This document shows, one piece after another, positions 8,499-36,465 of a stretch of 64,000 nucleotides of DNA. A model generated the notes under the pieces. It did not search any database and was not told the origin of the DNA. It saw only the letters and a list, made by a program, of their open reading frames with translations. Each line of letters begins with the position of its first letter. Positions within the stretch are counted from its first letter, which is position 1. The position numbers were made by a program, and so were the translations under genes. This stretch comes from Paramecium sonneborni (Eukaryota > Ciliophora > Oligohymenophorea > Peniculida > Parameciidae): the NCBI GenBank assembly GCA_905182985.1, contig CAJJDN010000047.1, positions 393,522-457,521 of the forward strand. Reading direction: 5' to 3'.

Positions 8499-8696
8499 TC
8501 GAATAAAACATTAGAGTAATCATACTATGATTTCATATAAAATAAATTAATTAATCATGCATACACATGCGATACATTTCATTAATAATCACTTTTATAC
8601 CTTTACCTTATCAAGTAGCTTCTTTTTTCAATTATTTATATTTACGAGTACATTTAATATCTTTTAATTATTATTCGTCATTTCATATTAATATAA

Positions 8697-10092: not shown

Positions 10093-10152
10093 AAAGAATT
10101 TTATTTAAACAATTACATAATAACAATATAATTCTAAAGTTTTCATAGTATT

Positions 10153-10756: not shown

Positions 10757-10980
10757 TATTCACCATCTCTTATCATTTTGTATTATTTTTATATTCAATT
10801 TCATTTTATACTATTACTATTATCTTCTATCATCTTTCTATGCTGATTATTCTATCATTTTCCTTCTCAAAAAATATCATCATTTGTAGAAATCTTTTAT
10901 CTTACATTTTTTAATATATATATTATACTGTATTGTTTAAAAATGTAAGAAATATTCTCACTATTACTTTTATTCATAAG

Positions 10981-13467: not shown

Positions 13468-13635
13468 ATGGGTAATTATTATAGAAAAACGTCCCAGAAA
13501 AGTAATTATTTCAATATGAGATAGAGCTTAGAACAAAATTAATTCTTGTTGAACTAGCTATATAAAGAGTTATTGTACTATTACAAAAATAAAAGTTAAT
13601 ATTAAGTTAAGAAATGGATAAAATCTCAAAGTTGA
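13468..13635 (+). CDS. small protein, unknown (55 aa)
   Basis: A short frame from ATG 13468 to TGA 13633-13635 encodes a Tyr/Gln/Lys-rich peptide beginning MGNYYRKTSQ. The N-terminal Gly-Asn would suit myristoylation. There are no introns. It ends 80 bp before the FHA gene on the same strand and might instead be part of its leader. Low confidence. Confidence 0.25.
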
Positions 13636-13714
13636 TATTTAGTGAAATAAAGAAATATTTCCATTAATATTAATTTAAAATAATTTTTTTCGAGTATATT
13701 CTTATACCACGTAG

Positions 13715-15278
13715 ATGGAAAACCCTTATAACTTTGCCTTAAGCTAATCAAACTAATTTAATAGTATTAAAATTTTTGATGGTTAGGTTTTATGAATATG
13801 CAATAAATAGTGATACCAGTAAGACCTGATGAATTAGAACTTAATAACCTTTAATAGATGGCTGGATCGATAGCCTTGCAAGAAAATTCAGAAATGGTAG
13901 AAGAAAAACAAGTACTAATATTTTATATACAAGTAACAAAACCCCCTACATGATAAAAAGTATTTGGAAAATGGAGAAAGTGTCTAGCAAATTGTAACTA
14001 ACAAAAGAACTTTTAACGACTTTAATAGAGAATTTCCTTTTGTCAAGATCAGTGTTTACAAGTAGCACCAAATGGCTAATTAAAAAATATATATACTTTA
14101 AGATGACAAGTAAAAATATTCAATTATGTTAGAATTATTGGAAGCAATTAGATCTCAAAAAATGAAATATCAATCATTCGTCGTAAAAAGTAATAACAAT
14201 AAGGAGATAATAATATAGATTTAGGTAGATAATTTAAATGATAATTTTTAGGTCTCTCTTCATAAGAAGTAAATATAGATTAAGTTCCTTGTAAAATTTC
14301 AACAGAATTTGGTTTTCGTCATTCTAGTAGAATTACACCACATATTCTCTGTTTTTTATCTTTAAAATATTCCCATTCAAGATTTTAATAATTTCCATCC
14401 AATATCTTTAAACTTATACACTCATTTATTAAGTAGTTCTTACTTTTAATTTTTTTAGAGAAAAACCATAATTCTATGTTTAGGATTGTGGAACATCTTT
14501 GAAAACCTTAGTTAGAATTAAAAAAGAAAGTCCAAAAATAATGAACGATTACAACAATTACTTAATTGGAGCTGATTTCTATTTTCATGTGGTTCAATTA
14601 AATTCAATACCATATCCATAAGATAAGAAAAAAAAGGATCAAGAAACACCAAATGAATACTTTTATTAGACTCTTGTTAGAGAACATGAAAAATATAGAG
14701 CTAGAATTCATGGTCTGTCTTTAGAAGAATAGGCAACTTTTTAAGGTATTTCATATATTTATATAATAGAATACTTGGAAGAATATAGAAAATTAAAGAA
14801 GAAAGGAAGGAAATAATATCATCTCTTAAATTGCTAAAGACCATTTCTTAAAATACAATTTGATACACCAATATTTAAATAGATAGCTGTTTTCATAGCT
14901 AAATCAGGATGTGAATAAATATTTAAAATTGGAAGATCTTAGGATTGCGATATTATTGTCAATATGAATACTGTCTCAAGAAAACAAACTTAAATTAAAT
15001 TCAATAAATCATAATGGGAAATCTGTGATGGAGAAGGTATACGATAATCAGCTAATGGAACTTGGTAATCCTTATAACCCTATGAATTACCTTTTTAGAA
15101 AAAATCTAATCTTAGTACTCCACTTTTGATTGAAGATCTTATGGAAATTAAAATATCTGAAAACATTTTTAAATTTGAAATGATTGGATTTGGAGTTTCA
15201 AAAAAGTAATATTATTTTAATATTATTAGACGAAAATTGACAAATACACTCTACTAAGAATTAACTTAATTTAATTGA
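13715..15278 (+). CDS. FHA-domain protein
   Basis: Six short introns (13782-13810, 13912-13933, 14110-14132, 14225-14251, 14433-14458, 15206-15229; 22-29 nt) give an exact frame of 470 residues. Near the C-terminus (about residues 350-440), FKIGRSQDCDIIV, then NTVSRKQTQIKF and SANGTW, are the G-R-S, S-R-x-H-like and N-G-T elements of a forkhead-associated phosphothreonine-binding domain (the S-R-x-H position reads SRKQ). An earlier region (EFGFRHSSRITPH, later FYVQDCGTS) looks like a second, more diverged FHA. The N-terminus is Gln-rich and probably disordered. FHA proteins read phospho-Thr marks in kinase signalling. No catalytic domain is present. The third intron is what brings both FHA-like regions into one frame. 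Confidence 0.75.
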
Positions 15279-15396
15279 TTTCATTTAAAATGATTTCAAA
15301 ACCTTATATATTTAAATATTGTATTAAATTATTTTCTTTCCATTTTTTCAACTTTCTTTTTTTAAATTATATTAGAAAGCTTAATAGAAATATATC

Positions 15397-16374
15397 ATGA
15401 AAATTAAAAAGTTAAATAGAGAGAAAACATCTACTCATTCTTCAAGAACCATCAAGATTTACAATAATAAGAAGCTTAATGCCAGTAAAAGAGCTTAAAA
15501 TAAAGACCTGGGAAAACCTCCAAATTTAAAAAACATTATTTTAGATAAACCAAATATTTGGGCTGCCAAAGAGAAATCAATTAGACTGATAACTTTCTTA
15601 ATAAACTAAGGGAGGCATTTTCTACTTCATCCAGCAGGAACAAAGAAGATCTTGAAATATGAATCTAATTAGTAAAAATAGAAAGAAAAGGAAAACTTAC
15701 ATAATTATATTAACAAAATGAAACCATTATACGATTTATTAGGATAAATATCTATTACTTATCTTGGATTTTAATAGAGATAGTAAAAGAAAGAAAGATT
15801 AATTGTATTTTTTTTTAGAAATAATTCTTAAATAGATCCTCAATATGATAATCTAGAGCCTCTTATTAATAATTAATTATAATATGAATTAGAAGAAATT
15901 AAATTTTAGCTTGACAAGAACTTTTTTAGAGAACTTCATGAGATTTTAAAATAACTAGTAGGAAATTAAATAAATATTTAAAATCAAATTAAACTAATTA
16001 CTTAAAAAATAGTGAATTAAACTAATGATTTACATGAACTATCCTAAGCTAATACAATAGCCAAGAATTTATTCATCTAGTTATTGATTGAGTAAGGAAA
16101 TAAAAATTTATAATTATTGAAAACGATTATTGAAGATTAGGATGCAAAATAATTAGTTAAATTATTTAAATATTTCATTACATCTAATTCATTAAGAATT
16201 GAGGAATTCATAACAAATATAATAAAATTGATGTAAGGAGACAACTTTAACAATTTAACTGAAAATTCTCATCAACAAGATATTTTTAATGATGAATGTT
16301 TAATATAATTAAAATACCTATATCCAGAAAATGATAATTCTATTTATCTTAGTGATTAAGAAGGATTTATTTGA
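15397..16374 (+). CDS. unknown protein with basic N-terminus (325 aa)
   Basis: A continuous intronless frame of 326 codons runs from ATG 15397 to TGA 16372-16374. The first 45 residues are Lys/Arg/Ser-rich (MKIKKLNREKTSTHSSR). A Leu/Ile-rich, Gln-rich helical body follows, about residues 120-310. No membrane segment or known motif is seen. It lies 119 bp after the FHA gene and 87 bp before the RanBD gene, all on the same strand. Confidence 0.6.
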
Positions 16375-16461
16375 TATTTTAAATTTTAGTATTATTTTTA
16401 GATTTTTTGTGAATAACTTATTTAAATTTTAAAATTAATTGAAATTATTATTAAATTATTC

Positions 16462-17357
16462 ATGGCATAATAAGGAGAAGAATTAAAAGGCAAAATTGAT
16501 GAATCTCAAAAGGGATAAAATGAGTAGAAAGAATAATCAGTCTAATAGTAGGAGGAGAAGAATGCTGAGGATAGTCAAGAAAAACCAAAAAATTAAAGTT
16601 AATCTTAATCTCTTTTTTCTGGTTTGAATTCTGGATAGAATTTATTTAATAATAGTGGCATTAACCTTAAACCAGGCTAATTATTTACTGGAAATATCTT
16701 AAGTTCATCAACATAACCTACATCAGAATTATTTTCATAGTTGTTCAAAAATACAAATGTAGAAATTAATTGTGGAAAAACTCAATCTGAGATAAATTAA
16801 TAAATATCAAAGCCTGCAGAAAATAATAATCAAGATGATGATGGTAACATTCTTAAATTTATTTAAATTAGAAGAAGATGACGATGAAGAAGATTAAAAA
16901 TATTTATACTCTGATTTTAAGTATGAATAAAATGCAGACTTGGAATAGATTATCAAAGTAAATTGAAATATAATATTAAAAAGTAAGATTTAGAAAAGTT
17001 TAGAAGAAATGCAAATCAAATACTTGAGAAAGGAACTGTCTCTATTGAAAAAGCTAAAAATGAAGAATCTTATTTCTTTATTTATAGGTATTCTATTGAT
17101 TTATAATTAGAAACTAAACTTAATAAATTATCTATGCTGGATAATTGATAAAAGGACTTTCAAAGACAAGGCCTTTAGGTTAAAAATAAGAAAATCTATT
17201 ACTTAAAGCAGTAAGCAAAAAGGAATAAGAAAATTAACAAGAGTTATAATAAGTTGATGATAAAAAGTAGTTAGTCATTGATATTTTAAAATTAATGTTT
17301 ACAACAAAAGAAGGAGCTGAAGAATTTAAAAAGCAATTAGAAAAGGTATTGCAATGA
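16462..17357 (+). CDS. RanBP1-domain nucleoporin (Nup50-like)
   Basis: Introns at 16844-16871 (28 nt), 16958-16983 (26 nt, 3' AAG) and 17088-17110 (23 nt) leave 272 residues. The Gln/Glu-rich N-terminus leads into a region with spaced LFSG, NLF, QLFTG and LFSQ motifs, reminiscent of FG repeats. An acidic stretch (DDDEEDDDEED) and a C-terminal Ran-binding domain follow: EKGTVSIEKAKN, SYFFIYRNQTQQIIYAG, and LMFTTKEGAEEFKKQLEKVL at the end. That order (NxQTxxIxYAG, then T-x-E-x-A-E-E-F) is typical of the RanBD of Nup50/RanBP2-type proteins acting in nuclear transport at the pore basket. The assignment between Nup50 and another RanBD nucleoporin is an inference. Confidence 0.8.
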
Positions 17358-18383
17358 AAATATGTATAAATTATATTGTTTAAAAATTAAATCAATATTT
17401 TATATCAATTATTTTTTATTATGCTTTGGTTTAAGGATCATAGCAAATGTAAATCTTCTTTTCTATATAATTTTAAGAGTTTTATCAGTAACAATAGTAA
17501 TATAATAAAATTATTAGAATCTATACGACAAAATCTAACATTTAAAATAATAATTTAAAACTTATAAAAAATTAGAGTTATTTTCTTTTACATAATCTTC
17601 AGTAGCCAAAAATTAAGTAAGACAGCAATAAATAAAATAATTGAACCTAAAATACTTTTTTTAGTTAAGTCCTTTTATTAAATCTTAATCATTTTAAAAT
17701 ATAATTTTTCAATTAAATATAATTCTGTCTTGTTTTTTGATAATTTGACATCTTTTCTTTGAACTATTTTTTGATCTGTTACTTCCAATTTAAGCACCTA
17801 ATTCTTTGCTTACTTTCAAACTTAATCGATGATACATATTGTTTATATTATCATTGTTATAAAAATTGGAGGTTTTAAAAATATGACTTAAACTATTTCT
17901 GTAAAAAATATAAATTTCATTTGTTTAATTTATTATAATTATATAAGTTTAACAATCCATTAATTACATTCACATTGTCTGGATATTTTTTGAGAATTGC
18001 TATTTCAGTAATAAGAGGAACCTATGCTATTTTATTATAAAGTTGTTATTTATTTAGTAGTTATATGATTTGATTTATTTCACAGTTTTAAAGATAAATT
18101 AATAAAATTACAATTGTAAAAATATCATTTATATTCAAATTACTTTTGACTTAAAATCTTGGAATTCATTATAAAATAATATTAATTAAAAAATTGAATT
18201 TTTATTCTAAAATAAAATATTTTTATTATTGATTTTTTAAGTGTTATTTTATGGAAAGAATTTTAGCTTCAAAGTAAATGCAAGAAACAATCTTTTGAAA
18301 TTCTATTAATCTATGAATTTAACTCATATTATTAATAAAATTTATGTAATTTTTTTTTATATAAATATTTCTTAATTGCTCAA
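17358..18383. other. intergenic region holding a gene relic
   Basis: No intact gene is visible. The region contains the K-gene relic annotated separately; the rest is AT-rich with no recognisable coding sequence. Confidence 0.4.
17669..17820 (-). pseudogene. degenerate fragment of pseudokinase gene K
   Basis: Read on the minus strand, this ~150-bp piece matches codons ~45-100 of gene K (compare 21300-21440) with many substitutions, a one-base insertion in the GGTGCT(T)AAATTGG segment and further indels. Conserved bits include KVSKELGA, TDQKIV and NKTELYL. It is broken and has no start. It lies ~3 kb from the intact copy in opposite orientation, so it is a dispersed old copy, not an assembly duplicate. 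Confidence 0.7.
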
Positions 18384-20081
18384 ATGATAACAATTTTATT
18401 CTTGGATCGTAAAGATGAAGAACATTAAAGAAATTACGCAAATATAATGGAAACACTGTAAAAGAGTAGTGTTAGAGAATCATGGACATTATTTGATTCT
18501 GAATCAGGGAATTTAGTTGATTAAAATACAAATTTAAAAGATATTTTCAAGCTGAGAGCTTTGAAAGGTTCAGATATTAAAAATTTGTTTAAAGAACATA
18601 AAGATATCCAAACACTTATGAAAAAAAACGATTAATATGAAAAAGAAATAAAAAATTTAAAGGATGAACTTAAAGAATATAATTTGGTGAAATAATCATA
18701 ACTGCTTAATGTTCAGACTAATGTCTAGATCAATAGAAATGTCATAGAGAAAGAATAAGAAATTGAGAATCTAAAAAAAATAAATAAACAATAAGAATAA
18801 ATAATACAAGATATGGATACCGATAAAGCAGAATCTTAATCAGTTTAAAATTTCAATTAAAATAGAATGATAGAGAGAAATAATGAAATAATAGCAAACT
18901 TAAATTAAGAATCAAAAAATTTATCCTAAGAGCTTAAATCTTAATAATAAAAAGTAGAGTCTTTATCCTAATAACTTGAATCTAAAAAATAAGAAGTAGA
19001 TAACTTATCCTAAAAGCTTGAATCTATGTCAGTTGAACTTAATCAATAATCAAAAACAATAGAAAACTTAACCAAAGAAAAAGAAAAATTTTAATCTTAA
19101 TCGTTCAATATTGAAAGTTCATGCAATCAAACAATATAAGAAGTTCTTTAGTCATTTTATGATGAAGAAAAGCCTATGAATATTTATTTGCAACATTTTA
19201 ATTTGTTATTAGAAAAACAATTGGAAAATGAAAAATAAAAAATCAAAGAACCTCTGAATAATACATTTTTATAGAGTACTTAGATTCTTCAAATAAGCAT
19301 ATAATAAGTAACCTTAGACATTTAAAAATTTAAGTAATGTGTTAAGGATAAGAGAATTTTTTTATTAGAAAATGAATATATAATTTAAGGTAAAAAATAA
19401 GATATTGATTAAGATACATTAATAAAATTAAAAAATGGACTCAGTTAAGAGATTACAATTAATAATGATATTTATTAAATAAAAATAAAGGAATCTAGAA
19501 AAAAAGAGTATTAAGCAATGCATTTAATAAATAATTAATTAGTAGTAGAAGGCTTTATGTCAATATATAATGAAGACCTCTAAAAAACAAAACCTTAATT
19601 AAACAAAATTTCTTTAGAATTAGAAAAAGACTTTTTAATTAAAGATGAAATTAACTAATAATAAAACCAATAATTAAACCAAATTCGTTTAAAATTAGCA
19701 AAACACTTTTTAATTAAAGATCAATTTAACTAATACTATATTTGTGAGGAAGTTTTTGGAGATGAATAAAATAAAAAATATGAAACATTTACATAATCAA
19801 CATTAATTCATTAATACATTAATTCCTTCATATTATACTTCTATTATTCTATGAATAAAAATTGTATAATAACAAAATATGAATTAAGAGAGGAGGATAA
19901 ACAGCCTAAAAAGCTGTCAAATATTAAAATTAGTCATAATTATTTTTAAGCATTATCTTTATTTTATAAAGGAAATTAGCGTATAGAAAAACTCAAAATA
20001 AATAATTTGACTTAAGGAGCCTATTAAACATTTTGGTCTGAAGAATTAAAAAAGTTGGCTGAAGAAAAAAGAGGAGTTTGA
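18384..20081 (+). CDS. coiled-coil protein (565 aa)
   Basis: A single uninterrupted frame of 566 codons without introns. After ~60 N-terminal residues the protein is a long Gln/Glu/Lys-rich coiled coil (roughly residues 75-260) with heptad-like repeats such as LSQQLESKKQEVDN and LSQKLESMSVELN. The C-terminal half is more mixed. A 22-26-residue segment is duplicated in tandem near residues 410-455 (KDFLIKDEINQ, then KHFLIKDQFNQ). No motor, kinase or membrane domain is seen. A structural or scaffold role is only a guess. Confidence 0.7.
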
Positions 20082-20629
20082 AAATAATAAGAAGATATTA
20101 TTAAATATAAAAAATACTTTATTTTGTTATTTTATTTATTTTTTCTCTAAAAATAGGATCGTTAATTAATTCTTTTTTAAGATAACTTATTATATAAAAA
20201 TAAATAATATTTTTAAATAAAGTAAAAAGCTCTTTAAGAAATTATTAATTAAGGTATTTATAAAAAAAAGATTCTAGATGAATTAAAAGATTTCTATCTA
20301 TTTAGTTTAGCAGAAATTAAATCTTGAATGTGAATAATTATGATTAATTTATTTTTAGATAAGAAAACTCAAATATCATAAAATTAACAAATACCTAATT
20401 TTTTTAAAGAACTTATCTCTTTGTTAAGTTCTTCTGATTTGATTTAAGTTTCATAGGATTTAAGAAAAAATTAAATGAATGATAGATTAAATTATAATAT
20501 GGAATTCATTCAAAATGGAATAAACACAAAAATATTTAGAATATTCAAAAGAAAATTGATTTATTAACTTTAATTTTATTTAATTAATTTATAGTTTGAA
20601 AAAAACAATATAAATGAAGAATGAGTATA
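20082..20629. other. intergenic stretch left of the inverted repeat
   Basis: AT-rich, with no supported gene. The sequence is unique up to 20629; homology to the reverse-strand arm begins at 20630. Confidence 0.4.
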
Positions 20630-21285
20630 TAAAAAATAAATTTTATTTATGAATGCAAAAATTAAATCCTTAATGCTTTCATTTGATTATTTTTTTTAAT
20701 GAATTATTTCTTAAATTATCATTTTTCATGTTATCATAAAATCTAATTATGTAAAGTTTGATCAATTGTTTAGAATCTAAAGATCTGAGAGAATTGTTCA
20801 ATTAAGAATAACGAATTGATGAAACTACGTCATGATTAGATTTTGATAACAATTATCATTAAGATTGTGATCGCAATTTTTGTTACAAATGAAATTTCAT
20901 TTTAAGATAATAATGATGGTTTGTTACTATAAGATTAGAGTTTATCAAATTCATTAGTAGGTGATTCATCAAATTGATTTAAATGAACAATAAGTTTATA
21001 GGAACTATTAATATATAAAAATACTCTTATTATCATTTGAATGATTACTTTATTGGATTTATTGAAAGCCCTATGATAGAGTTAATTTTTAGGAATAATC
21101 TTAGACATTTATAATCTGATTAAGGAGAGAGACATTGAGAGCTTCCCATTAATTAATGTATTAAATAATTCATACTATTTATCAAACAGATCAAATTCTA
21201 ATTCATTAAGCAAAGAATGGAAATATTCCTATGATCTCTTTAACTGTAAATAGAAGAATTGATTTAATGCCACTTGCATAATGTG
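20630..21285 (+). repeat. left arm of inverted repeat flanking the K-L cassette
   Basis: This 656-bp block reappears reverse-complemented at 26469-26974, 29016-29616 and 31423-32122. Differences are few: AAGG versus AAGA near 21122-21125, a T/A difference near 20685 and a 44-bp segment absent here but present at 32038-32081. The inner boundary is sharp: after ...GCATAATGTG the two arms continue into different sequence. The arm contains the broken 3' part of gene P, a short membrane-anchored frame (from ATG 20819) and the first ~43 codons of gene K. Confidence 0.85.
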
Positions 21286-23776
21286 GAGGATTATGTTTGA
21301 AAGTAAGCAAAGAGTTAGGTGCTAAATTGGAAGTAACAAATCAAAAAATAGTTTTAATAGAGGATGTAAAATTAGCAGACAACAAGACAGAATTGTATTT
21401 CATAGGAGAATTATATCATTTAAATGATTAAGATTTAATAGAAGGCCATAAATTAGAAAGTGTAAGACGAATTTTAATTGAACTGTATAAGGCATACGAT
21501 TCATTATTGAAATAGAATAAATAGTTAGATTTCTCTCTCTATAATCTATTTTTAGTTTAAGATTAACTAAAAGTATTAGATATAGGAGTTTTAAATAAAA
21601 AAGTCTAAAAAGACTCAACTCCAACAAGTATGCTTGCATTATTAATTTTAAAACTATTTTTATCACGACAATAATACAAACCATTAAAATATATGAATAG
21701 TGGATAATAGATAGAATACATACGGAAATTAAATGAATATTCAATTTTATTGCCAATGCTAGATGATATTCCAAAAAGAATTTCCTGGGAAAATCTTGGT
21801 TGTTATCTCTTTTAAGATGTTAAAAAATAAGAATTTCTATCAACCATGCCTATTGCTATGTATTATAAATAGCCATACAAATTAAATTCAACATTAAATT
21901 CATATAGTTTGGCAGTTTAAAGAATGTAGAGTAATTTAAGGTCTAGAAGTAAAAGAAATGTAGGATCTTTATATGAACATTAAAAAACATCTATTAATGG
22001 ATTAGATGATGATTCTTAAGAAAATCAAAGAGTTATTCGTTCAAGAAGATTAATTAATCCAAATATTAATCTTATTAAACCAGGATCAATGCAATCTACT
22101 CCTAATCATAATAAATTAGAGCATCCTTATAGACATTCTCCTTAAATAATTAATAACTAATCATAAACTTAATAAATTAGAGCTTCATTCAAAACTGAAA
22201 ACTCTTTATAAACAATATAACAAAATGTTTCTTATGATAATTTCTTTTTAAAAACATAAACAATGACTCCAGAGGATTCATAATCTAAATTTATATCGAT
22301 TAATGCCAGTGTTAGTTAAAATTATTATTCTCAAGAAAATTAAAATTAAAATGACTAATTAACCACTTTATAATAATTATAGGTGAAGAGCACAATTTAA
22401 CATGAAAAAAGAATTTTCAAATTACCTTAACATAAATAATTACCACCAGNGGAGAGAGACATTGAGAGCTTCCCATTAATTAATGTATTAAATAATTCAT
22501 ACTATTTATCAAACAGATCAAATTCTAATTCATTAAGCAAAGAATGGAAATATTCCTATGATCTCTTTAACTGTAAATAGAAGAATTGATTTAATGCCAC
22601 TTGCATAATGTGGAGGATTATGTTTGAAAGTAAGCAAAGAGTTAGGTGCTAAATTGGAAGTAACAAATCAAAAAATAGTTTTAATAGAGGATGTAAAATT
22701 AGCAGACAACAAGACAGAATTGTATTTCATAGGAGAATTATATCATTTAAATGATTAAGATTTAATAGAAGGCCATAAATTAGAAAGTGTAAGACGAATT
22801 TTAATTGAACTGTATAAGGCATACGATTCATTATTGAAATAGAATAAATAGTTAGATTTCTCTCTCTATAATCTATTTTTAGTTTAAGATTAACTAAAAG
22901 TATTAGATATAGGAGTTTTAAATAAAAAAGTCTAAAAAGACTCAACTCCAACAAGTATGCTTGCATTATTAATTTTAAAACTATTTTTATCACGACAATA
23001 ATACAAACCATTAAAATATATGAATAGTGGATAATAGATAGAATACATACGGAAATTAAATGAATATTCAATTTTATTGCCAATGCTAGATGATATTCCA
23101 AAAAGAATTTCCTGGGAAAATCTTGGTTGTTATCTCTTTTAAGATGTTAAAAAATAAGAATTTCTATCAACCATGCCTATTGCTATGTATTATAAATAGC
23201 CATACAAATTAAATTCAACATTAAATTCATATAGTTTGGCAGTTTAAAGAATGTAGAGTAATTTAAGGTCTAGAAGTAAAAGAAATGTAGGATCTTTATA
23301 TGAACATTAAAAAACATCTATTAATGGATTAGATGATGATTCTTAAGAAAATCAAAGAGTTATTCGTTCAAGAAGATTAATTAATCCAAATATTAATCTT
23401 ATTAAACCAGGATCAATGCAATCTACTCCTAATCATAATAAATTAGAGCATCCTTATAGACATTCTCCTTAAATAATTAATAACTAATCATAAACTTAAT
23501 AAATTAGAGCTTCATTCAAAACTGAAAACTCTTTATAAACAATATAACAAAATGTTTCTTATGATAATTTCTTTTTAAAAACATAAACAATGACTCCAGA
23601 GGATTCATAATCTAAATTTATATCGATTAATGCCAGTGTTAGTTAAAATTATTATTCTCAAGAAAATTAAAATTAAAATGACTAATTAACCACTTTATAA
23701 TAATTATAGGTGAAGAGCACAATTTAACATGAAAAAAGAATTTTCAAATTACCTTAACATAAATAATTACCACCAG
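21124..23776. repeat. direct repeat 21124-22449 / 22451-23776 separated by one N: unmerged contig overlap
   Basis: The 1,326 bp before the N at 22450 and the 1,326 bp after it appear the same base for base wherever I compared them. A contig end, one N, and a restart at exactly the overlapping position is the signature of two contigs joined without merging. I treat it as an assembly artefact, so gene K is probably single-copy in this orientation. Confidence 0.85.
21156..22449 (+). CDS. gene K, pseudokinase-like protein (copy A, truncated by assembly gap)
   Basis: Same protein as the complete copy at 22483-24495, reading from ATG 21156 (or 21231) until the N at 22450 cuts it after 431 codons. 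The frame is open back to TGA 21117-21119. See the complete copy for domains. This is probably the same gene as copy B seen in an overlapping contig. Confidence 0.7.
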
Positions 23777-24495
23777 AAGATAATGAATAAACTATAAAGG
23801 TCACTAAAATGGAGGAAGATTTGACTAAGGAGTTTGAAAAATATTCAGAAAATTATAAACATTATATTGAATGCTTAAATATGATTGGTAAGACAGTTGC
23901 TAAATGTATAACTACTTTAGATGCAAAGAATAATCTTTGGATGATGCCTTTATTTATTGTATTTAAAAGAATGTATTAATTAAGAATTTCTTTAGAAAAT
24001 AGTATACAAAATAATCACAATATTTTCCATCTTTAAAATTATACATAATTTACAGAAAGTTTGTAATTTCAAGAGTTTAAAGAGGGATTTATTAATCAAA
24101 ATAATATTGTTAAAACAGAAGTTTAAACTTTATTATAAAATTGTGAATTCAAGATAGAGAAACTTGATAAAAAAAATTAATAAAAAATAGTTCCTTTGTT
24201 GAATCTAAATTTAGATTAGAGTATCAGGGATATTTCGTTTATTTACTTTTACTAATAGATTTATAGTTATATTAAAAAGTTAATGGTAGAGCGCCCTAAA
24301 TAAGCACAATAATTAAGGGATTTGATTGTTAAAATTTAATGCTCCTTATTAATAATGGATTAAGCTATTGGTGATTTTAAATTTGATTTATAAGAATATA
24401 ATAATCGTAAACAAGATGAATTATATAGATAAGAGAATGAGTTAAAACTAGAAAAGATTAAAATGAGAATATAAAAAAGTGGATATTAATTTTGA
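22483..24495 (+). CDS. gene K, degenerate protein kinase (pseudokinase-like), complete copy
   Basis: An intronless frame of 671 codons from ATG 22483; a second possible start is ATG 22558. Residues ~75-170 have the layout of a kinase: hinge-like ELYFIGELY, helix-E-like LESVRRILIELYKAYDSLL, then QLDFSLYNLFL where HRDLKxxN is expected, then LKVLDIGVL where DFG is expected. The HRD motif is gone (Asp125 and Asn129 remain) and DFG reads DIG (Asp142), so catalysis is doubtful. A long Ser/Asn/Gln-rich linker and a helical C-terminal domain (about residues 430-670) follow. The stop lies 65 bp before gene L on the same strand. The kinase call is from motif spacing and is moderate. Confidence 0.6.
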
Positions 24496-24559
24496 TTATT
24501 TTTAACTGATACTTTTATTTAACAGATAAATAATTATTATATTTTATTTTTCAGTTTAT

Positions 24560-26018
24560 ATGGGAGCTCAATAATCTGTAGCAGAAGGAATTATTAAATC
24601 AAAGAACTTCACAATATTAGGATATAAAGAAAATGATATTTATGGATCATTTAAAATAATAGAATCACAAGGAAATTAATATGCAATGGTTTCTAAAACC
24701 TGCCAAAATGAAGAAAGCTATATTAATTTTTGCAGAATATTAAAAGAGACTTAATAATTAAATAGAATAAATCAACTTGTAAAATTGGTTGAAGTAGATA
24801 TGCAAGAAGAATCTAATTTATGTAGTACTTTCTATAAGGTATCGGCTTTATACGAATATTATGATACTACTTTAAGGGAAATAACTAAATAAGCATCAGT
24901 AAACTGTTTGTTTGTATTAAAATCTTTATCTGAAGGATTAATAGAATTATACTCAAACAATTTAGTACATGGAAATCTAACACCTGATTTTATACTAATT
25001 GATAAATCAAAAGGAGAAGTGAAACTGAATAATTGTACTTAACTTACTGGATATAATCATTATAAGCGCATTCTAGCTAGTGATGGAACTTGGTATTTAT
25101 CTCCTGAATTAGTCGCAGCAATAGAAAAGAAGAATTTAAGACCTCAATATAATCATGAAAAGAATGAAGTTTATTAATTAGGATTGATAGCCTTAGAACT
25201 GTGGGGAAATGTAAATATATAATCTTTTTACAATAAATAATCTTGCGTTTTAAATAAAAGTACAAAAGTATTGTTTAGCTTTAGTTATTATAAATGAAGC
25301 CATAGATGAATTTGGCGTAAAGAATGGTTAAGTTTTGAAAAATGTTATCAAATAGATGTTGGAAGAGGACCCTAATAGTAGGCCTACAATGGCAGAACTA
25401 AATGCTGTTTTTGCACAATTATATGAGAATTAATTACAAATTATAGAAGAAGAACCTAAAGTACTTTAAAATGCCTAACCAATTACACAATAATAAGTTG
25501 TTACCTTATGTGAATTAAATTAAGAAGAAGAAGTTCATTAAGAAATAGTAGAAATCCACGAAGAGTCTTTCTAACATTAGAATGTAAATAATTCTAATGA
25601 AATTTGTAAATAATAATTTGAAGAATCCCCTAAAAAGGTAGAAAAATCAAGTGTTCATCTACATCCATAATCTTTGAAATCTTCAATATCTTAATCTATA
25701 AAGGAATACTATGTTACTGGATCAATTGCTGCTTAATTTGGTTAATTGACTTTCCTTGAAAATAATACTGAATATTAGTCTATTGGAGCTGCTCAATTTG
25801 AAAATCATCATGATTTAGATCAAGATGTATTACAAGAGAAACCTTAAAATATATAACAAAATTCAACTAAAAGTCATGAATCAACAATCATAAAAAAGAG
25901 TGTTAAAGTGAACTGTAATCCTCAAAATAAAAAATCAATTTTAATCAAAAGACCAAAACGTGAATCTTTAGAAACTAAACTTCCAAAATAAGCTGTAGTT
26001 ATAACTAAAAGAAGATGA
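24560..26018 (+). CDS. gene L, pseudokinase (complete copy)
   Basis: One 19-nt intron (25260-25278) gives 479 residues. The N-terminal ~290 residues are a kinase fold: ATP-site Lys46 in YAMVSKTC, LVHGNLTPDFIL at residues 135-146 where active kinases have HRDLKPxN (catalytic Asp is lost, His137-Gly-Asn), LNNCTQL in place of DFG, GTWYLSPEL for the APE region, EVYQLGLIALELW for subdomain IX and QMLEEDPNSRPTMAEL for subdomain XI. Both catalytic aspartates are missing, so it is a pseudokinase. The start MGAQQS could be N-myristoylated. The C-terminal ~190 residues are Gln/Glu/Ser-rich with a basic end (KRPKRES, TKRR). It is paired with gene K, so the two may act together as scaffolds or regulators; that is inference. 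Confidence 0.75.
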
Positions 26019-26468
26019 ATACTTTATATTTTAATGAGATTTATATATTACCTTTTAATTTGAATTTATTAATTTTTTATTGAATTTTAATTAAAGAAAC
26101 ATCCGATATAGATCAAGTACATATGTAAATTAATATCTATTAATGGAGTAATAATATATTTCTACGATCTTTTTTATTTTAATGTTTTTACTAAAATTAC
26201 ATAGAATAAAAGACGTTATGAAATTATTAAAAATAATATGTCATCTCAACATTTATTTGGAAAAAATATTAGTATTTAATCAATATTAAAAAAGCAATAA
26301 ATAAATTAATATTAGAACTCATTGAAAAGATTTATGACTTCAATCGGAATATGCAACTATTGAAAATATATGGACTACATCTTGGATTTTAAGTTCAATT
26401 TGGGTTGCAAAAAAGAGATATGGCATGGATCTTAAATACTTATTATCTTATATTATTGATTATGGTTA
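26019..26468 (+). other. region between gene L and the inverted arm
   Basis: 3' flank of gene L, repeated at 28566-29015. It contains a 41-codon frame at 26238-26363 (MSSQHLFGKN start) and another hydrophobic frame that runs across the repeat boundary. Neither is strong enough to call a gene. Confidence 0.35.
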
Positions 26469-26974
26469 CACATTATGCAAGTGGCATTAAATCAATTCTT
26501 CTATTTACAGTTAAAGAGATCATAGGAATATTTCCATTCTTTGCTTAATGAATTAGAATTTGATCTGTTTGATAAATAGTATGAATTATTTAATACATTA
26601 ATTAATGGGAAGCTCTCAATGTCTCTCTTCTTAATCAGATTATAAATGTCTAAGATTATTCCTAAAAATTAACTCTATCATAGGGCTTTCAATAAATCCA
26701 ATAAAGTAATCATTCAAATGATAATAAGAGTATTTTTATATATTAATAGTTCCTATAAACTTATTGTTCATTTAAATCAATTTGATGAATCACCTACTAA
26801 TGAATTTGATAAACTCTAATCTTATAGTAACAAACCATCATTATTATCTTAAAATGAAATTTCATTTGTAACAAAAATTGCGATCACAATCTTAATGATA
26901 ATTGTTATCAAAATCTAATCATGACGTAGTTTCATCAATTCGTTATTCTTAATTGAACAATTCTCTCAGATCTT
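26469..26974 (-). repeat. right arm of inverted repeat (copy B contig, truncated at N)
   Basis: Reverse complement of 20780-21285, directly abutting the 3' flank of gene L. It carries the AAGA variant (CTTCTT on the plus strand near 26632), as do the arms at 29016-29616 and 31423-32122, unlike the left arm. It is cut by the N at 26975. Confidence 0.85.
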
Positions 26975-26975
26975 N

Positions 26976-27041
26976 TAAGAGAATGAGTTAAAACTAGAAA
27001 AGATTAAAATGAGAATATAAAAAAGTGGATATTAATTTTGA
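26976..27041 (+). CDS. gene K, last 21 codons (copy C contig)
   Basis: The 3' end of gene K as it appears at the start of the overlapping contig; stop at 27039-27041. It is a duplicate of 24430-24495, not a separate gene. Confidence 0.6.
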
Positions 27042-27105
27042 TTATTTTTAACTGATACTTTTATTTAACAGATAAATAATTATTATATTTTATTTTTCAG
27101 TTTAT

Positions 27106-28565
27106 ATGGGAGCTCAATAATCTGTAGCAGAAGGAATTATTAAATCAAAGAACTTCACAATATTAGGATATAAAGAAAATGATATTTATGGATCATTTAA
27201 AATAATAGAATCACAAGGAAATTAATATGCAATGGTTTCTAAAACCTGCCAAAATGAAGAAAGCTATATTAATTTTTGCAGAATATTAAAAGAGACTTAA
27301 TAATTAAATAGAATAAATCAACTTGTAAAATTGGTTGAAGTAGATATGCAAGAAGAATCTAATTTATGTAGTACTTTCTATAAGGTATCGGCTTTATACG
27401 AATATTATGATACTACTTTAAGGGAAATAACTAAATAAGCATCAGTAAACTGTTTGTTTGTATTAAAATCTTTATCTGAAGGATTAATAGAATTATACTC
27501 AAACAATTTAGTACATGGAAATCTAACACCTGATTTTATACTAATTGATAAATCAAAAGGAGAAGTGAAACTGAATAATTGTACTTAACTTACTGGATAT
27601 AATCATTATAAGCGCATTCTAGCTAGTGATGGAACTTGGTATTTATCTCCTGAATTAGTCGCAGCAATAGAAAAGAAGAATTTAAGACCTCAATATAATC
27701 ATGAAAAGAATGAAGTTTATTAATTAGGATTGATAGCCTTAGAACTGTGGGGAAATGTAAATATATAATCTTTTTACAATAAATAATCTTGCGTTTTAAA
27801 TAAAAGTACAAAAGTATTGTTTAGCTTTAGTTATTATAAATGAAGCCATAGATGAATTTGGCGTAAAGAATGGTTAAGTTTTGAAAAATGTTAATCAAAT
27901 AGATGTTGGAAGAGGACCCTAATAGTAGGCCTACAATGGCAGAACTAAATGCTGTTTTTGCACAATTATATGAGAATTAATTACAAATTATAGAAGAAGA
28001 ACCTAAAGTACTTTAAAATGCCTAACCAATTACACAATAATAAGTTGTTACCTTATGTGAATTAAATTAAGAAGAAGAAGTTCATTAAGAAATAGTAGAA
28101 ATCCACGAAGAGTCTTTCTAACATTAGAATGTAAATAATTCTAATGAAATTTGTAAATAATAATTTGAAGAATCCCCTAAAAAGGTAGAAAAATCAAGTG
28201 TTCATCTACATCCATAATCTTTGAAATCTTCAATATCTTAATCTATAAAGGAATACTATGTTACTGGATCAATTGCTGCTTAATTTGGTTAATTGACTTT
28301 CCTTGAAAATAATACTGAATATTAGTCTATTGGAGCTGCTCAATTTGAAAATCATCATGATTTAGATCAAGATGTATTACAAGAGAAACCTTAAAATATA
28401 TAACAAAATTCAACTAAAAGTCATGAATCAACAATCATAAAAAAGAGTGTTAAAGTGAACTGTAATCCTCAAAATAAAAAATCAATTTTAATCAAAAGAC
28501 CAAAACGTGAATCTTTAGAAACTAAACTTCCAAAATAAGCTGTAGTTATAACTAAAAGAAGATGA
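27106..28565 (+). CDS. gene L, second copy with 1-nt frameshift
   Basis: The same as 24560-26018 except for an extra A near 27893 (GTTAATC versus GTTATC). The insertion falls in the KNVIKQ segment just before kinase subdomain XI. It shifts the frame and destroys the end of the kinase domain and the tail. Since everything else matches, this is most simply a base-calling error or a rare allele in an overlapping contig. The copy at 24560 is the intact reading. Confidence 0.65.
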
Positions 28566-29015
28566 ATACTTTATATTTTAATGAGATTTATATATTACCT
28601 TTTAATTTGAATTTATTAATTTTTTATTGAATTTTAATTAAAGAAACATCCGATATAGATCAAGTACATATGTAAATTAATATCTATTAATGGAGTAATA
28701 ATATATTTCTACGATCTTTTTTATTTTAATGTTTTTACTAAAATTACATAGAATAAAAGACGTTATGAAATTATTAAAAATAATATGTCATCTCAACATT
28801 TATTTGGAAAAAATATTAGTATTTAATCAATATTAAAAAAGCAATAAATAAATTAATATTAGAACTCATTGAAAAGATTTATGACTTCAATCGGAATATG
28901 CAACTATTGAAAATATATGGACTACATCTTGGATTTTAAGTTCAATTTGGGTTGCAAAAAAGAGATATGGCATGGATCTTAAATACTTATTATCTTATAT
29001 TATTGATTATGGTTA

Positions 29016-29616
29016 CACATTATGCAAGTGGCATTAAATCAATTCTTCTATTTACAGTTAAAGAGATCATAGGAATATTTCCATTCTTTGCTTAATGAAT
29101 TAGAATTTGATCTGTTTGATAAATAGTATGAATTATTTAATACATTAATTAATGGGAAGCTCTCAATGTCTCTCTTCTTAATCAGATTATAAATGTCTAA
29201 GATTATTCCTAAAAATTAACTCTATCATAGGGCTTTCAATAAATCCAATAAAGTAATCATTCAAATGATAATAAGAGTATTTTTATATATTAATAGTTCC
29301 TATAAACTTATTGTTCATTTAAATCAATTTGATGAATCACCTACTAATGAATTTGATAAACTCTAATCTTATAGTAACAAACCATCATTATTATCTTAAA
29401 ATGAAATTTCATTTGTAACAAAAATTGCGATCACAATCTTAATGATAATTGTTATCAAAATCTAATCATGACGTAGTTTCATCAATTCGTTATTCTTAAT
29501 TGAACAATTCTCTCAGATCTTTAGATTCTAAACAATTGATCAAACTTTACATAATTAGATTTTATGATAACATGAAAAATGATAATTTAAGAAATAATTC
29601 ATTAAAAAAAATAATC
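29016..29616 (-). repeat. right arm of inverted repeat (copy C contig, longer)
   Basis: Reverse complement of 20685-21285, and the same as 31423-32023 where compared. It ends at the N gap just where the left and right arms begin to differ. Confidence 0.85.
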
Positions 29617-29630
29617 NNNNNNNNNNNNNN
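29617..29630. other. assembly gap (14 N)
   Basis: Fourteen N bases separate the forward K-L contig from the contig carrying reverse-oriented K. Confidence 0.95.
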
Positions 29631-31552
29631 TTATTATATTCTTATAAATCAAATTTAAAATCACCAATAGCTTAATCCATTATTAATAAGGAGCATTAAA
29701 TTTTAACAATCAAATCCCTTAATTATTGTGCTTATTTAGGGCGCTCTACCATTAACTTTTTAATATAACTATAAATCTATTAGTAAAAGTAAATAAACGA
29801 AATATCCCTGATACTCTAATCTAAATTTAGATTCAACAAAGGAACTATTTTTTATTAATTTTTTTTATCAAGTTTCTCTATCTTGAATTCACAATTTTAT
29901 AATAAAGTTTAAACTTCTGTTTTAACAATATTATTTTGATTAATAAATCCCTCTTTAAACTCTTGAAATTACAAACTTTCTGTAAATTATGTATAATTTT
30001 AAAGATGGAAAATATTGTGATTATTTTGTATACTATTTTCTAAAGAAATTCTTAATTAATACATTCTTTTAAATACAATAAATAAAGGCATCATCCAAAG
30101 ATTATTCTTTGCATCTAAAGTAGTTATACATTTAGCAACTGTCTTACCAATCATATTTAAGCATTCAATATAATGTTTATAATTTTCTGAATATTTTTCA
30201 AACTCCTTAGTCAAATCTTCCTCCATTTTAGTGACCTTTATAGTTTATTCATTATCTTCTGGTGGTAATTATTTATGTTAAGGTAATTTGAAAATTCTTT
30301 TTTCATGTTAAATTGTGCTCTTCACCTATAATTATTATAAAGTGGTTAATTAGTCATTTTAATTTTAATTTTCTTGAGAATAATAATTTTAACTAACACT
30401 GGCATTAATCGATATAAATTTAGATTATGAATCCTCTGGAGTCATTGTTTATGTTTTTAAAAAGAAATTATCATAAGAAACATTTTGTTATATTGTTTAT
30501 AAAGAGTTTTCAGTTTTGAATGAAGCTCTAATTTATTAAGTTTATGATTAGTTATTAATTATTTAAGGAGAATGTCTATAAGGATGCTCTAATTTATTAT
30601 GATTAGGAGTAGATTGCATTGATCCTGGTTTAATAAGATTAATATTTGGATTAATTAATCTTCTTGAACGAATAACTCTTTGATTTTCTTAAGAATCATC
30701 ATCTAATCCATTAATAGATGTTTTTTAATGTTCATATAAAGATCCTACATTTCTTTTACTTCTAGACCTTAAATTACTCTACATTCTTTAAACTGCCAAA
30801 CTATATGAATTTAATGTTGAATTTAATTTGTATGGCTATTTATAATACATAGCAATAGGCATGGTTGATAGAAATTCTTATTTTTTAACATCTTAAAAGA
30901 GATAACAACCAAGATTTTCCCAGGAAATTCTTTTTGGAATATCATCTAGCATTGGCAATAAAATTGAATATTCATTTAATTTCCGTATGTATTCTATCTA
31001 TTATCCACTATTCATATATTTTAATGGTTTGTATTATTGTCGTGATAAAAATAGTTTTAAAATTAATAATGCAAGCATACTTGTTGGAGTTGAGTCTTTT
31101 TAGACTTTTTTATTTAAAACTCCTATATCTAATACTTTTAGTTAATCTTAAACTAAAAATAGATTATAGAGAGAGAAATCTAACTATTTATTCTATTTCA
31201 ATAATGAATCGTATGCCTTATACAGTTCAATTAAAATTCGTCTTACACTTTCTAATTTATGGCCTTCTATTAAATCTTAATCATTTAAATGATATAATTC
31301 TCCTATGAAATACAATTCTGTCTTGTTGTCTGCTAATTTTACATCCTCTATTAAAACTATTTTTTGATTTGTTACTTCCAATTTAGCACCTAACTCTTTG
31401 CTTACTTTCAAACATAATCCTCCACATTATGCAAGTGGCATTAAATCAATTCTTCTATTTACAGTTAAAGAGATCATAGGAATATTTCCATTCTTTGCTT
31501 AATGAATTAGAATTTGATCTGTTTGATAAATAGTATGAATTATTTAATACAT
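29631..31552 (-). CDS. gene K in reverse orientation (copy D, 3' end lost in gap)
   Basis: Reverse complement of 22483-24404 and identical wherever I compared it. The frame starts at ATG 31552 (or 31477) and is cut at the gap after ~640 codons, 30 codons short of the stop. The start lies inside the inverted-repeat arm, and upstream on the same strand is the intact gene P, so here K has a different upstream neighbour from copy A. Either a second locus or the inverted form of the same cassette. Confidence 0.7.
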
Positions 31553-32122
31553 TAATTAATGGGAAGCTCTCAATGTCTCTCTTCTTAATCAGATTATAAA
31601 TGTCTAAGATTATTCCTAAAAATTAACTCTATCATAGGGCTTTCAATAAATCCAATAAAGTAATCATTCAAATGATAATAAGAGTATTTTTATATATTAA
31701 TAGTTCCTATAAACTTATTGTTCATTTAAATCAATTTGATGAATCACCTACTAATGAATTTGATAAACTCTAATCTTATAGTAACAAACCATCATTATTA
31801 TCTTAAAATGAAATTTCATTTGTAACAAAAATTGCGATCACAATCTTAATGATAATTGTTATCAAAATCTAATCATGACGTAGTTTCATCAATTCGTTAT
31901 TCTTAATTGAACAATTCTCTCAGATCTTTAGATTCTAAACAATTGATCAAACTTTACATAATTAGATTTTATGATAACATGAAAAATGATAATTTAAGAA
32001 ATAATTCATTAAAAAAAATAATCTAATGAAAGCATTATGCAATAATAATTTAAATGAAGATAATTTCAAAAATCTAAATAAAGGATTTAATTTTTGCATT
32101 CATAAATAAAATTTATTTTTTA
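31423..32122 (-). repeat. right arm of inverted repeat, complete (700 bp)
   Basis: The reverse complement of 20630-21285 plus a 44-bp segment (32038-32081) missing from the left arm. Outside it (32123 onward) the sequence is unrelated to the left flank. On its inner side it runs directly into reverse-oriented gene K, whereas the otherwise identical arm at 26469 runs into the 3' flank of gene L. Confidence 0.85.
31570..31889 (-). CDS. possible small membrane-anchored protein within the repeat arm
   Basis: A frame from ATG 31889 begins with a hydrophobic segment (ILITIIIKIVIAIFV). With a 38-nt GTAG...TAAG intron it would read 94 codons to TGA. Equivalent copies lie at 20819-21138 (+), 26616-26935 (-) and 29163-29482 (-). 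Its start overlaps the end of gene P in another frame, and the intron is long for this genome, so it may not be a real gene. Confidence 0.25.
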
Positions 32123-32418
32123 CACATCCAACAGGCATCCAAATTAAAAATTATAATATATAAATCATATGATGGCTTTTTGTTCTGAATATAGAGATTT
32201 GTTTCTTTATTGATAGTTTTTATAGATCTAGAACTCATTAATTTCTATATCTTCTTTTTCATACATTTTATAAATTAATTTTATAATTTTTCATATTTTT
32301 TAGAATATAATCTTATGTAGGCTTGTATACATAGCCCCATCAAATGATCAAATAATAAACCTAATTTAAAATATTGAATAATAATTCTGAGCTTCTGTTT
32401 TTTACATGTCATTAACAT
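31873..32418 (-). CDS. gene P, unknown protein; C-terminal half lies in the repeat arm
   Basis: An uninterrupted frame of 181 residues runs from ATG 32418 to TGA 31873-31875. It is Lys/Ile/Leu-rich with hydrophobic blocks and ends in a charged helix (ESKDLRELFNQEQRIDETTS). The last ~75 codons are inside the inverted repeat. In the left arm the corresponding copy lacks 44 bp and is therefore frameshifted and truncated, so the copy here is the only intact one. No domain is recognised. Confidence 0.4.
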
Positions 32419-32513
32419 TATTCAAATATCTTAAAACTTTGCTTATAAAAGATATTTAATAAATTATGTTATTTATATATAATTTATTATTAATAATAGA
32501 TTTATTGTATATA

Positions 32514-33418
32514 TCATTCAATACATTAAGAACAACAACATCTTTACATACATAAACAACACATATCACTATATTTTTCTTCATAAAAACTTTAGTCCAA
32601 AAAAAAGATCCCAGTAAGTAAAAGAGCTTTTTCTTCAAAAGAAGATAATTTAGGAAATTGGACTACATATTCTGATTCTACATTTAACATACATTCATAA
32701 CAGCATCCCTTTTTTTGACTGATCTTCTTTATTTCAGCTATTTTCTAAATATAATATTTATTACTTTATTGAATTTATTAAGGATGTCAAAAGATATTGT
32801 TTAACAAAAACCACAGGGCAGATAACAATAAGTTTAGAATTAATTCCAAATACCTTTTATATAAAATAACAAATTATTATTTGCATCAAATATTTCAACT
32901 GTTTTTAATATTGAAAATAAAGGGAATCTAACATAACCTAATTCATTTCCTTATGATCCTACTGTTTTGACATATGGTCTTATATTATCAAAATACAGTA
33001 CCTGTTCAAACATAGCCAAGTGCACTTATAATCTCTGTTGATTGTAAAAATTAGTTTTTGGTTAGTTGAACTTAGATTTTGTTTAACTTCCATATTGAAT
33101 GATCTACAAGAGCTTGGTAATGATATTCGTTCATAACATTCTGTCTCTGAGTTTACTTTAAAGTGTGGCCGAGATTTTTTCTATTCAAATTCTGTGTTGA
33201 AGTTATCCATAGCATAAATAAAGTAAAAATTTTGATTCTCGCATTAAGATGAAGCTGTAAAAATTTCAAATCTTTGTGCAATATATATATAGTCAGTTTT
33301 CGAAAATGCATCACATTCAACACTATCAATATTAATCTAAAATTATTCTCATTACTACTTAAATGTTGGATTCTATTGATAAATTGTAATCATTCTAAGT
33401 ATTTTTCTTTGAATTCAT
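32514..33418 (-). CDS. phospholipid scramblase family protein
   Basis: Introns at 33337-33358 (22 nt), 32979-33001 (23 nt, 3' AAG) and 32745-32764 (20 nt) give exactly 279 residues. The series LPSSCRSFNMEV, FTINRDYKCTWLCLNRP, LGYVRFPLF, VEIFDANNNLLFYIKG, LPCGFCQTISFDI, then a C-terminal YVVQFPKLSSFEEKALLL and IFFLDQSFYEE follows the conserved layout of scramblases: a Cys-rich strand, the R-x-Y-K-C-T-x-x-C-x-N-R-P segment, the F-D-I segment and the C-terminal hydrophobic helix with its L-D-x-x-x-F-E-like end. A very Cys-rich tail (MCCLCMQRCCCSQC) suggests palmitoylation. The family moves lipids between leaflets or binds them in a Ca2+-dependent way. Start: the first ATG giving this frame; upstream there is a stop. 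Confidence 0.8.
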
Positions 33419-33843
33419 AGTTCCAAATTAAAAAAATATATTTGTAATTTTAATGTAATGTTTGCTTGATTATAACCAGTCTACCTTTTAAAACATAATA
33501 CTCCTTCTACAATACCACATACATTACCACATTTAACTCATCATACTCCCTTAAAATCAAAAATATTGTATTTTATTTTCAGATAGTTATTTGTAGCTAC
33601 ATCTATGTGTGGTATCTTTTTTATTAATAAATAATTATTATGATTTAGCACTTAATTTACAAACGAATGAAGAAATTATATTTTGATTATTCGAAAAGAA
33701 TGATATAGTTTATTAAGAAATACATTTAAAATTAAAAACTATAAAATGCATCAATAATTAATGGTGAACAAAAGAGGAAATTACTTGTTAAATTACAACC
33801 GAGAAAGGAATTTTTTTATATATAGTTCCCATAAAATTAATTA
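33419..33843 (-). other. region between scramblase gene and gene Q
   Basis: All three minus-strand frames are partly open because only TGA stops translation. Segments such as CGNVCGIVEG or QKEYYVLKGR look protein-like, but no single spliced model joins them. It may hold a 5' exon of the scramblase gene or a relic. Confidence 0.3.
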
Positions 33844-34510
33844 TCATTTTAATGTATCTCTGTTTTATTGGGCTTCCAAATTTAGAGGTGTTTTCACTAT
33901 TGAATATTAATCTGTAGTATGAAACCTTTATCCATTGTTTTGTTATTTTTTGCCTAATATTTATGATTCATTCTAAAAATCGGCATAGAATTCACCAACA
34001 TTCATTAATTACACTTTAGTTTTTTTTCTATCTGAATATCTACAAACCCGACTTACCCTGTTTGGAGAAAATGTCTGCTATTGTTTTGATTATACAATTA
34101 ATGATTTTGCTCTTGTTGAGATAGTTTAAGTTTTTGTATATTATGTAGAAAAACCTGCATCCTGTTCCAAAATTGGAGGAACATATGTTTTTTGGAAATT
34201 TTAATTTTAATTGTTAATAGTTATGTTTTGATTTCCATTTTTTTAAATAACAAATTGTAAAGGTTATAATAAATTACTAAATTTAGGAGGCTATGCTTTT
34301 TATCCTTCTAATTCTTTAATTTGATTATAAAGCTTATAAAATTGTTTGTCAAAGAATGTTTTATTAGCAATCTAATCTAAACAATGAAATAAAAGTATGT
34401 ATACTCAATTGTAGTTGTAATGATAATTGATCAATCAATAATATCATCATTCTATTAACGATTGAATTGTATTCATATTCAAGTTTTTTATTTAGAAAAC
34501 CACTATGCAT
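33844..34510 (-). CDS. gene Q, small Gln-rich protein of unknown function
   Basis: ATG 34510 with a 28-nt intron (about 34379-34406, GTATAC...GTTTAG) gives 212 residues to TGA 33844-33846. The N-terminal ~70 residues are helical and leucine-rich, and the rest is Ser/Thr/Gln/Lys-rich (RAKSLIVQSKQQQTFSP). No recognised domain. An identical copy at 35244-35910 is probably an assembly duplicate. Confidence 0.55.
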
Positions 34511-35243
34511 ATGAATAAATTAAAATTAATTTATTTTTTTTTTAGAAAATTAAATTACATTACATGAATTTCATAAAGTTACTAATGATTACACATATAT
34601 TTAATAAATCTCTTAAATATTTTTTGGAAATTGTCTTATGTACTTATTAATTAAATATAGGATCTAGATTAAATGATTATAAGATACTATTTTTAATTTA
34701 TTTGTAATTTAATGTTAATTGCTTTCATAATTTTTATTAATAATTATTCAATGTAATATCTATTTTTGTAATTGAAGAGATTATTATAATTTTATGTATG
34801 ATAAATTATTTTCGTAAATAAAAAACATATATTACAAAAAAGTACTTGTAAAAACGTTTTGATATGATGATTAATTTAAGGAGATAATGTAGCAAAAATG
34901 AAACCAGAATTAANCCACATACATTACCACATTTAACTCATCATACTCCCTTAAAATCAAAAATATTGTATTTTATTTTCAGATAGTTATTTGTAGCTAC
35001 ATCTATGTGTGGTATCTTTTTTATTAATAAATAATTATTATGATTTAGCACTTAATTTACAAACGAATGAAGAAATTATATTTTGATTATTCGAAAAGAA
35101 TGATATAGTTTATTAAGAAATACATTTAAAATTAAAAACTATAAAATGCATCAATAATTAATGGTGAACAAAAGAGGAAATTACTTGTTAAATTACAACC
35201 GAGAAAGGAATTTTTTTATATATAGTTCCCATAAAATTAATTA

Positions 35244-35910
35244 TCATTTTAATGTATCTCTGTTTTATTGGGCTTCCAAATTTAGAGGTGTTTTCACTAT
35301 TGAATATTAATCTGTAGTATGAAACCTTTATCCATTGTTTTGTTATTTTTTGCCTAATATTTATGATTCATTCTAAAAATCGGCATAGAATTCACCAACA
35401 TTCATTAATTACACTTTAGTTTTTTTTCTATCTGAATATCTACAAACCCGACTTACCCTGTTTGGAGAAAATGTCTGCTATTGTTTTGATTATACAATTA
35501 ATGATTTTGCTCTTGTTGAGATAGTTTAAGTTTTTGTATATTATGTAGAAAAACCTGCATCCTGTTCCAAAATTGGAGGAACATATGTTTTTTGGAAATT
35601 TTAATTTTAATTGTTAATAGTTATGTTTTGATTTCCATTTTTTTAAATAACAAATTGTAAAGGTTATAATAAATTACTAAATTTAGGAGGCTATGCTTTT
35701 TATCCTTCTAATTCTTTAATTTGATTATAAAGCTTATAAAATTGTTTGTCAAAGAATGTTTTATTAGCAATCTAATCTAAACAATGAAATAAAAGTATGT
35801 ATACTCAATTGTAGTTGTAATGATAATTGATCAATCAATAATATCATCATTCTATTAACGATTGAATTGTATTCATATTCAAGTTTTTTATTTAGAAAAC
35901 CACTATGCAT
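35244..35910 (-). CDS. gene Q, duplicate copy (contig overlap)
   Basis: The same gene as 33844-34510, offset by 1,400 bp; likely the same locus in the overlapping contig. Confidence 0.5.
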
Positions 35911-36465
35911 ATGAATAAATTAAAATTAATTTATTTTTTTTTTAGAAAATTAAATTACATTACATGAATTTCATAAAGTTACTAATGATTACACATATAT
36001 TTAATAAATCTCTTAAATATTTTTTGGAAATTGTCTTATGTACTTATTAATTAAATATAGGATCTAGATTAAATGATTATAAGATACTATTTTTAATTTA
36101 TTTGTAATTTAATGTTAATTGCTTTCATAATTTTTATTAATAATTATTCAATGTAATATCTATTTTTGTAATTGAAGAGATTATTATAATTTTATGTATG
36201 ATAAATTATTTTCGTAAATAAAAAACATATATTACAAAAAAGTACTTGTAAAAACGTTTTGATATGATGATTAATTTAAGGAGATAATGTAGCAAAAATG
36301 AAACCAGAATTAAATTTAAAATGGTATAGGAAATGATTTGATTAATAAAATTAACAATTTAATTTTTCATTTGACTTCAACAGGTAAAGAGAAATTAATA
36401 ATAAATGGTAATTCTAAAAATTTGGAATCTGTTTTGATTATTAACAATAATATATTTTATATTGA

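Follow-up and report, generated by a model that had tools for sequence, protein, structure and literature searches.

Does the segment that carries the neighbouring genes K and L of Paramecium sonneborni lie between its inverted repeats in two orientations, as originally predicted, or does the assembly only print it so? The stretch of DNA analysed, here called the window, comprises 64,000 nucleotides (C47:393522-457521) of a 91.5 Mb assembly in 289 contigs, and was compared with itself. On the question of orientation, the analysis drew on the assembly sequence. The two genes are as follows.

22483..24495, + strand: gene K, 670 amino acids (code 6), with 84% identity to a single protein in each of P. 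pentaurelia and P. tetraurelia
24560..26018, + strand: gene L, with one short intron; protein-kinase domain PF00069 (E 1.2e-8, first exon scanned)

The intron of L lies somewhere in 25247-25305, with four candidates for its ends. By eye, the L translation reads HGN where kinases have HRD, and L is probably a pseudokinase on account of this replacement. The original prediction had called both genes pseudokinases; for K this is only suggested, and no Pfam match was found for it at E 1. The prediction had also run the two genes forward from 21156 to 26018, which is correct in orientation but not in span, as that interval crosses an N at 22450. K and L are coding and present in the assembly; IESs are TA-bounded germline DNA absent from the macronucleus.

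Single Ns are present at 22450, 26975 and 34914, and the self-comparison of the window showed that each sits between direct copies abutting the N. The joins and the one longer gap, none of which has a strand, are listed here.

22450: single-N join; 21124-22449 repeated exactly as 22451-23776 (1326 bp), an unmerged contig overlap
26975: single-N join; 24430-26974 repeated as 26976-29521 (2545 bp), with one indel
34914: single-N join; 33515-34913 repeated exactly as 34915-36313 (1399 bp)
29617..29630: 14-N gap; its ends lack an overlap of the single-N type and the flanking contigs conflict

The window was treated as contigs Ca (1-22449), Cb (22451-26974), Cc (26976-29616), Cd (29631-34913) and Ce (34915 on). 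Joins were also examined outside it; in contig coordinates all those examined, the three of the window (C47:415971, 420496 and 428435) included, lie as follows.

C47:356108, 388352, 415971, 420496, 428435 and 464726: single-N joins, unmerged overlaps
C49:162214, 174525, 182932, 209084 and 226717: single-N joins, unmerged overlaps
L012:639 (C31): single-N join, unmerged overlap, one direction

Duplicated ends of 1003-2545 bp were present at 11 of the 11 single-N joins in C47:343522-477521 and C49:150001-230000, and the twelfth join (C31), testable in one direction only, agrees with an overlap. Unmerged contig overlaps of about 1.0-2.5 kb were thus found at all 12 single-N joins examined (three in the window, nine outside), in stretches making up about 0.2 of 91.5 Mb. 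Of two longer gaps in the same stretches, one of 1666 N (C47) shows no duplication and the other, the 14-N gap of 29617-29630, has conflicting ends; adjacent contigs with identical ends across a gap were found at the single-N joins, and at neither of these longer gaps. In the examined parts of this published assembly, every single-N join conceals a false duplication of 1-2.5 kb, and copy number, duplications and gene models beside an N need checking. Unmerged overlaps at these joins can split or duplicate genes.

For the MAC genomes of PMC8354472, fragments of about 450 bp were sequenced as 2x250 reads, and the fused reads were assembled with Newbler 2.9 (minimum overlap 99 bp, 99% identity), followed by SSPACE with 5-13 kb mates and GapCloser. 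P. sonneborni appears among the MAC genomes sequenced in passages of that paper (PMC8354472), and we infer that the assembly studied here is the one it describes.

Self-comparison located the inverted arms and the reverse copy of K as follows.

20630..21285, + strand: left inverted arm, holding the region upstream of K, the initial 43 K codons and a broken counterpart of a frame that is open on the reverse strand in C49
26469..26974, - strand: right inverted arm in Cb (506 bp), joined to the L 3' flank
29016..29616, - strand: right arm in contig Cc, the contig ending at arm position 20685
31423..32122, - strand: right arm adjoining the right flank; 656 bp and a further 44 bp without counterpart in the left arm
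29631..31422, - strand: reverse K end of contig Cd, the sole evidence found for the second orientation; adjoins the 14-N gap

The inverted recurrence of the 656-bp arm 20630-21285 after L (26469 on) and at 31423-32122 agrees with the original prediction. What had been overlooked was the N joins. We read the repeats beside the single Ns as contig overlaps, so that several of the supposed copies would be one sequence printed twice and not genomic copies; the arms after L in Cb and Cc would then be one arm printed twice, with K and L likewise reprinted.

Over 656 bp the left and right arms differ by two substitutions (20684 T/A and 21125 G/A) and one 44-bp indel after 20670. The arms have 601 bp in common, with one substitution, and the identical stretches are 440 bases between the two variants and 160 bases after 21125, at the inner edge. 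The 44-bp segment and a small difference mark the right arm, and at 21125 the reverse-K contig has A, as the right arm does; both had been correctly noted. When Ca, Cb and Cc were merged, the order was left flank, arm, K, L, arm, and the copies that overlap disagreed at one indel only. In this layout the left arm has T at 20684 and G at 21125, and the L-side arm has A at 21125. Long near-identical repeats of the kind that permit inversion of the segment between them are present (656-bp arms, 3856 bp from inner arm edge to inner arm edge after merging). Cc stops inside the arm, so that no contig joins the arm of L to the right flank.

The second orientation (right flank, arm, K) was read in contig Cd only, with its K end abutting the 14-N gap. 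The order in Cd is right flank, arm (44 bp extra, 20684 A, 21125 A) and K, and the reverse K, with part of the arm included, matches Cb at 1952 of 1952 bases, in line with the predicted identity. Three of the four possible junctions are present, namely left arm-K, right arm-L and right arm-K. The left arm-L junction, which had been predicted, was not found by either of two probes of the assembly: the inner 162 arm bases matched at least five places, all in the window, and a diverged one in C49, and 23776-26468 (the last part of K through the L 3' flank) gave no other joining among the matches listed.

The history of the arms was examined through C49, which carries a diverged counterpart of much of the window, probably from the P. 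aurelia group whole-genome duplication. C49 matches cover window 1-17310, parts of 17536-26117 and most of 32126-52745, the comparison with C49 extending no further along the window. Very sensitive blastn gave mostly AT-rich, seemingly chance matches, and strong rows alone were used. The C49 counterpart of K is without stretches of about 71 and 317 bp and is therefore probably degenerate. The segments that matter for the rearrangement are given below.

17536-17653: segment a, like C49:168708-168827
17657..17827, - strand: K fragment, matching 21289-21459 (84%) and starting four bases past the inner edge of the arm
17834..18586, + strand: segment b, homologous to C49:169079-169880
26340..26477, + strand: segment c, homologous to C49:168935-169086

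In C49, segment c runs directly into segment b; in the window, the right arm (26469) follows c and the K fragment (17657-17827) precedes b. Both junctions lie near a short likeness recognised by eye (C49 CACATTTTG; K reverse strand CACATTATG; right junction CACATTATG; left junction ACATATTG). On the simplest reading, arm and fragment would be the two parts of a K copy divided by one old exchange. Window 17.8-26.3 kb (b, a coiled-coil gene, arm, K and L) is inverted relative to the flanks when compared with C49.

Two histories that might have led to a, K fragment and b on one side and to c and arm on the other were worked out by hand, and neither was adopted: tandem duplication followed by simple inversion fits in part, as does excision of a circle with reinsertion, and neither explains the place of segment a without extra steps. 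The ancestral K-L orientation could not be decided from C49, because the arms are homologous and the neighbourhood is comparable either way.

The rearranged region showed several further features. The inversion from b to L relative to the flanks spans window 17834-26310 against C49:169079-189290. The b-to-arm stretch is printed as about 16 kb in C49 (about 14 kb without two overlaps) and occupies about 3 kb in the window. Window 26096-26310 is an apparent remnant of the C49 gene past L (RING-domain exon), of which only the start is seemingly left; a search with one exon of that gene returned eight matches, RING-domain proteins where domains are given, none of them named Paramecium. A frame at L016:5388-7421 (C49), read in code 6, contains a tract of several hundred glutamines; its counterpart, near 11.5 kb in the window, is shorter and of low complexity.

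Between K and the K fragment there are 23 base differences over about 168 positions and, in addition, four gap columns; by codon position the differences number 9, 5 and 9. The arms are 99.7% identical against 84% for fragment and K (Fisher p about 8e-15, with neighbouring bases not independent). From two differences in 656 bases against 23 in about 168, the arms have probably been homogenised by exchange since the rearrangement, provided that arm and fragment derive from the same event. The reverse-strand frame open in C49, a putative gene only, is broken in both arms, so that their similarity is not readily attributed to selection. Whichever account of K-L holds, arms this similar next to a K fragment that has diverged would seem to document, on a small scale and in nature, that inverted repeats exchange sequence. 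Homogenisation makes a flip more conceivable without showing that one takes place today.

The likeliest account of the apparent second orientation is an assembly error, probably a mis-walk at the inner edge of the arm. K and L would then be ordinary neighbouring genes of the macronuclear genome of P. sonneborni, and the inverted repeats of about 0.66 kb round them would be remains of the old rearrangement, which would explain why the region upstream of K and its first 43 codons recur beyond L. The layout would be left flank, arm, K, L, arm, right flank. Right-flank sequence extended inward through its arm would have taken the K exit and not the L exit, resulting in a reverse-K overhang beside an unclosed gap; the remaining extra copies would be contig overlaps that were never merged, and the overlaps and the reverse-K end may both reflect a step of assembly. 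Two contigs break where the arm copies differ, the first base of Cb being one before variant 21125 and the last base of Cc one short of variant 20684, and the succession of right flank, 20684 A, 21125 A and K in Cd is that of a wrong exit after 160 identical bases. The 440 and 160 identical bases are what short reads must cross. Fused reads of about 450 bp are shorter than the 656-bp arm, and the 99% identity threshold would tolerate the lone difference in the 601 common bases. However, Cd continues 1792 bp beyond the arm into K without mismatch, longer than one read, the right end of Cb (arm position 20780) lies away from any arm variant, and a positive size is recorded for the 14-N gap, where superposing the arms of Cd and Cc would call for a negative gap of about 2.4 kb. 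The apparent recombination of the arms over evolutionary time also makes a real flip plausible.

Such a flip, with K-L turning by homologous recombination between the inverted arms so that both orientations coexist in one polyploid macronucleus, is a doubtful alternative to the mis-walk. It accounts for the right flank-arm-K junction of Cd, and the same kind of exchange would have kept the arms near-identical since the old rearrangement, their difference (2/656 and one indel, against 23/about 168 for the K fragment) pointing to exchange between them if the fragment was split in the same event. A simple inversion after duplication, worked out by hand, would moreover produce right flank-arm-K as the earlier of the layouts. 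Since autogamy makes P. aurelia strains homozygous, an allelic difference is unlikely and coexistence would have to be somatic. The K upstream region is nearly the same in whichever orientation, and expression need not change; the original prediction had K keeping its first ~43 codons both ways, with a change of upstream neighbour. A single crossover does relate the two layouts, as had been proposed, and the arms seem to have exchanged in the past, but the second orientation amounts to one contig end at a gap. Only one of the two flipped-form junctions was found. The order of bases bears on the choice as well. Starting from the merged layout, a single crossover has to lie within the inner 160 of about 601 common bases to bring 21125 A next to K on the side of the right flank, unless conversion followed, whereas a mis-walk at the inner edge gives right flank, 21125 A and K directly. 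For a single, evenly placed crossover this favours an artefact three or four to one, but the argument would lose force if exchange was repeated or gene conversion took place. A third reading takes the scaffold as printed, with a second, 3'-truncated K truly inverted between L and the right flank and three arms in all. Scaffold order and the positive 14-N gap agree with it, but it requires the third arm and a K without substitution over 1952 bp, and the twice-printed sequences at 12 single-N joins look like overlaps; we consider it very improbable. A recombinase-type switch was set aside; none of five translated stretches scanned against Pfam matched a recombinase family.

Should K-L flip after all, it would show that homologous recombination can invert a segment somatically in the macronucleus of a ciliate. 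A limited literature search returned no title on K-L flipping in Paramecium, which is not evidence of its absence from print. Inverted-repeat isomers of the plastid type would be the model for the coexistence of both orientations in a multicopy genome; plastid repeats span many kilobases, in contrast to the 0.66-kb arms here, where coexistence is hypothetical. A segment between near-identical inverted repeats that can be flipped repeatedly by non-allelic recombination, as envisaged here, is described in passages of PMC3961182 (2014), which also mention the difficulty of assembling such regions; the orientations there were genotyped by inverse PCR, whereas the flip here is only inferred. The single-N joins resemble the duplicated overlapping or contained contigs and false segmental duplications in passages of Kelley and Salzberg 2010 (PMC2864568), where neighbouring scaffold contigs likewise repeat their ends with the overlap unmerged. 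The cause given there is haplotype difference, whereas the overlaps here are essentially identical, and, unlike the cases in those passages, one contig of this locus also has a conflicting overhang at a repeat.
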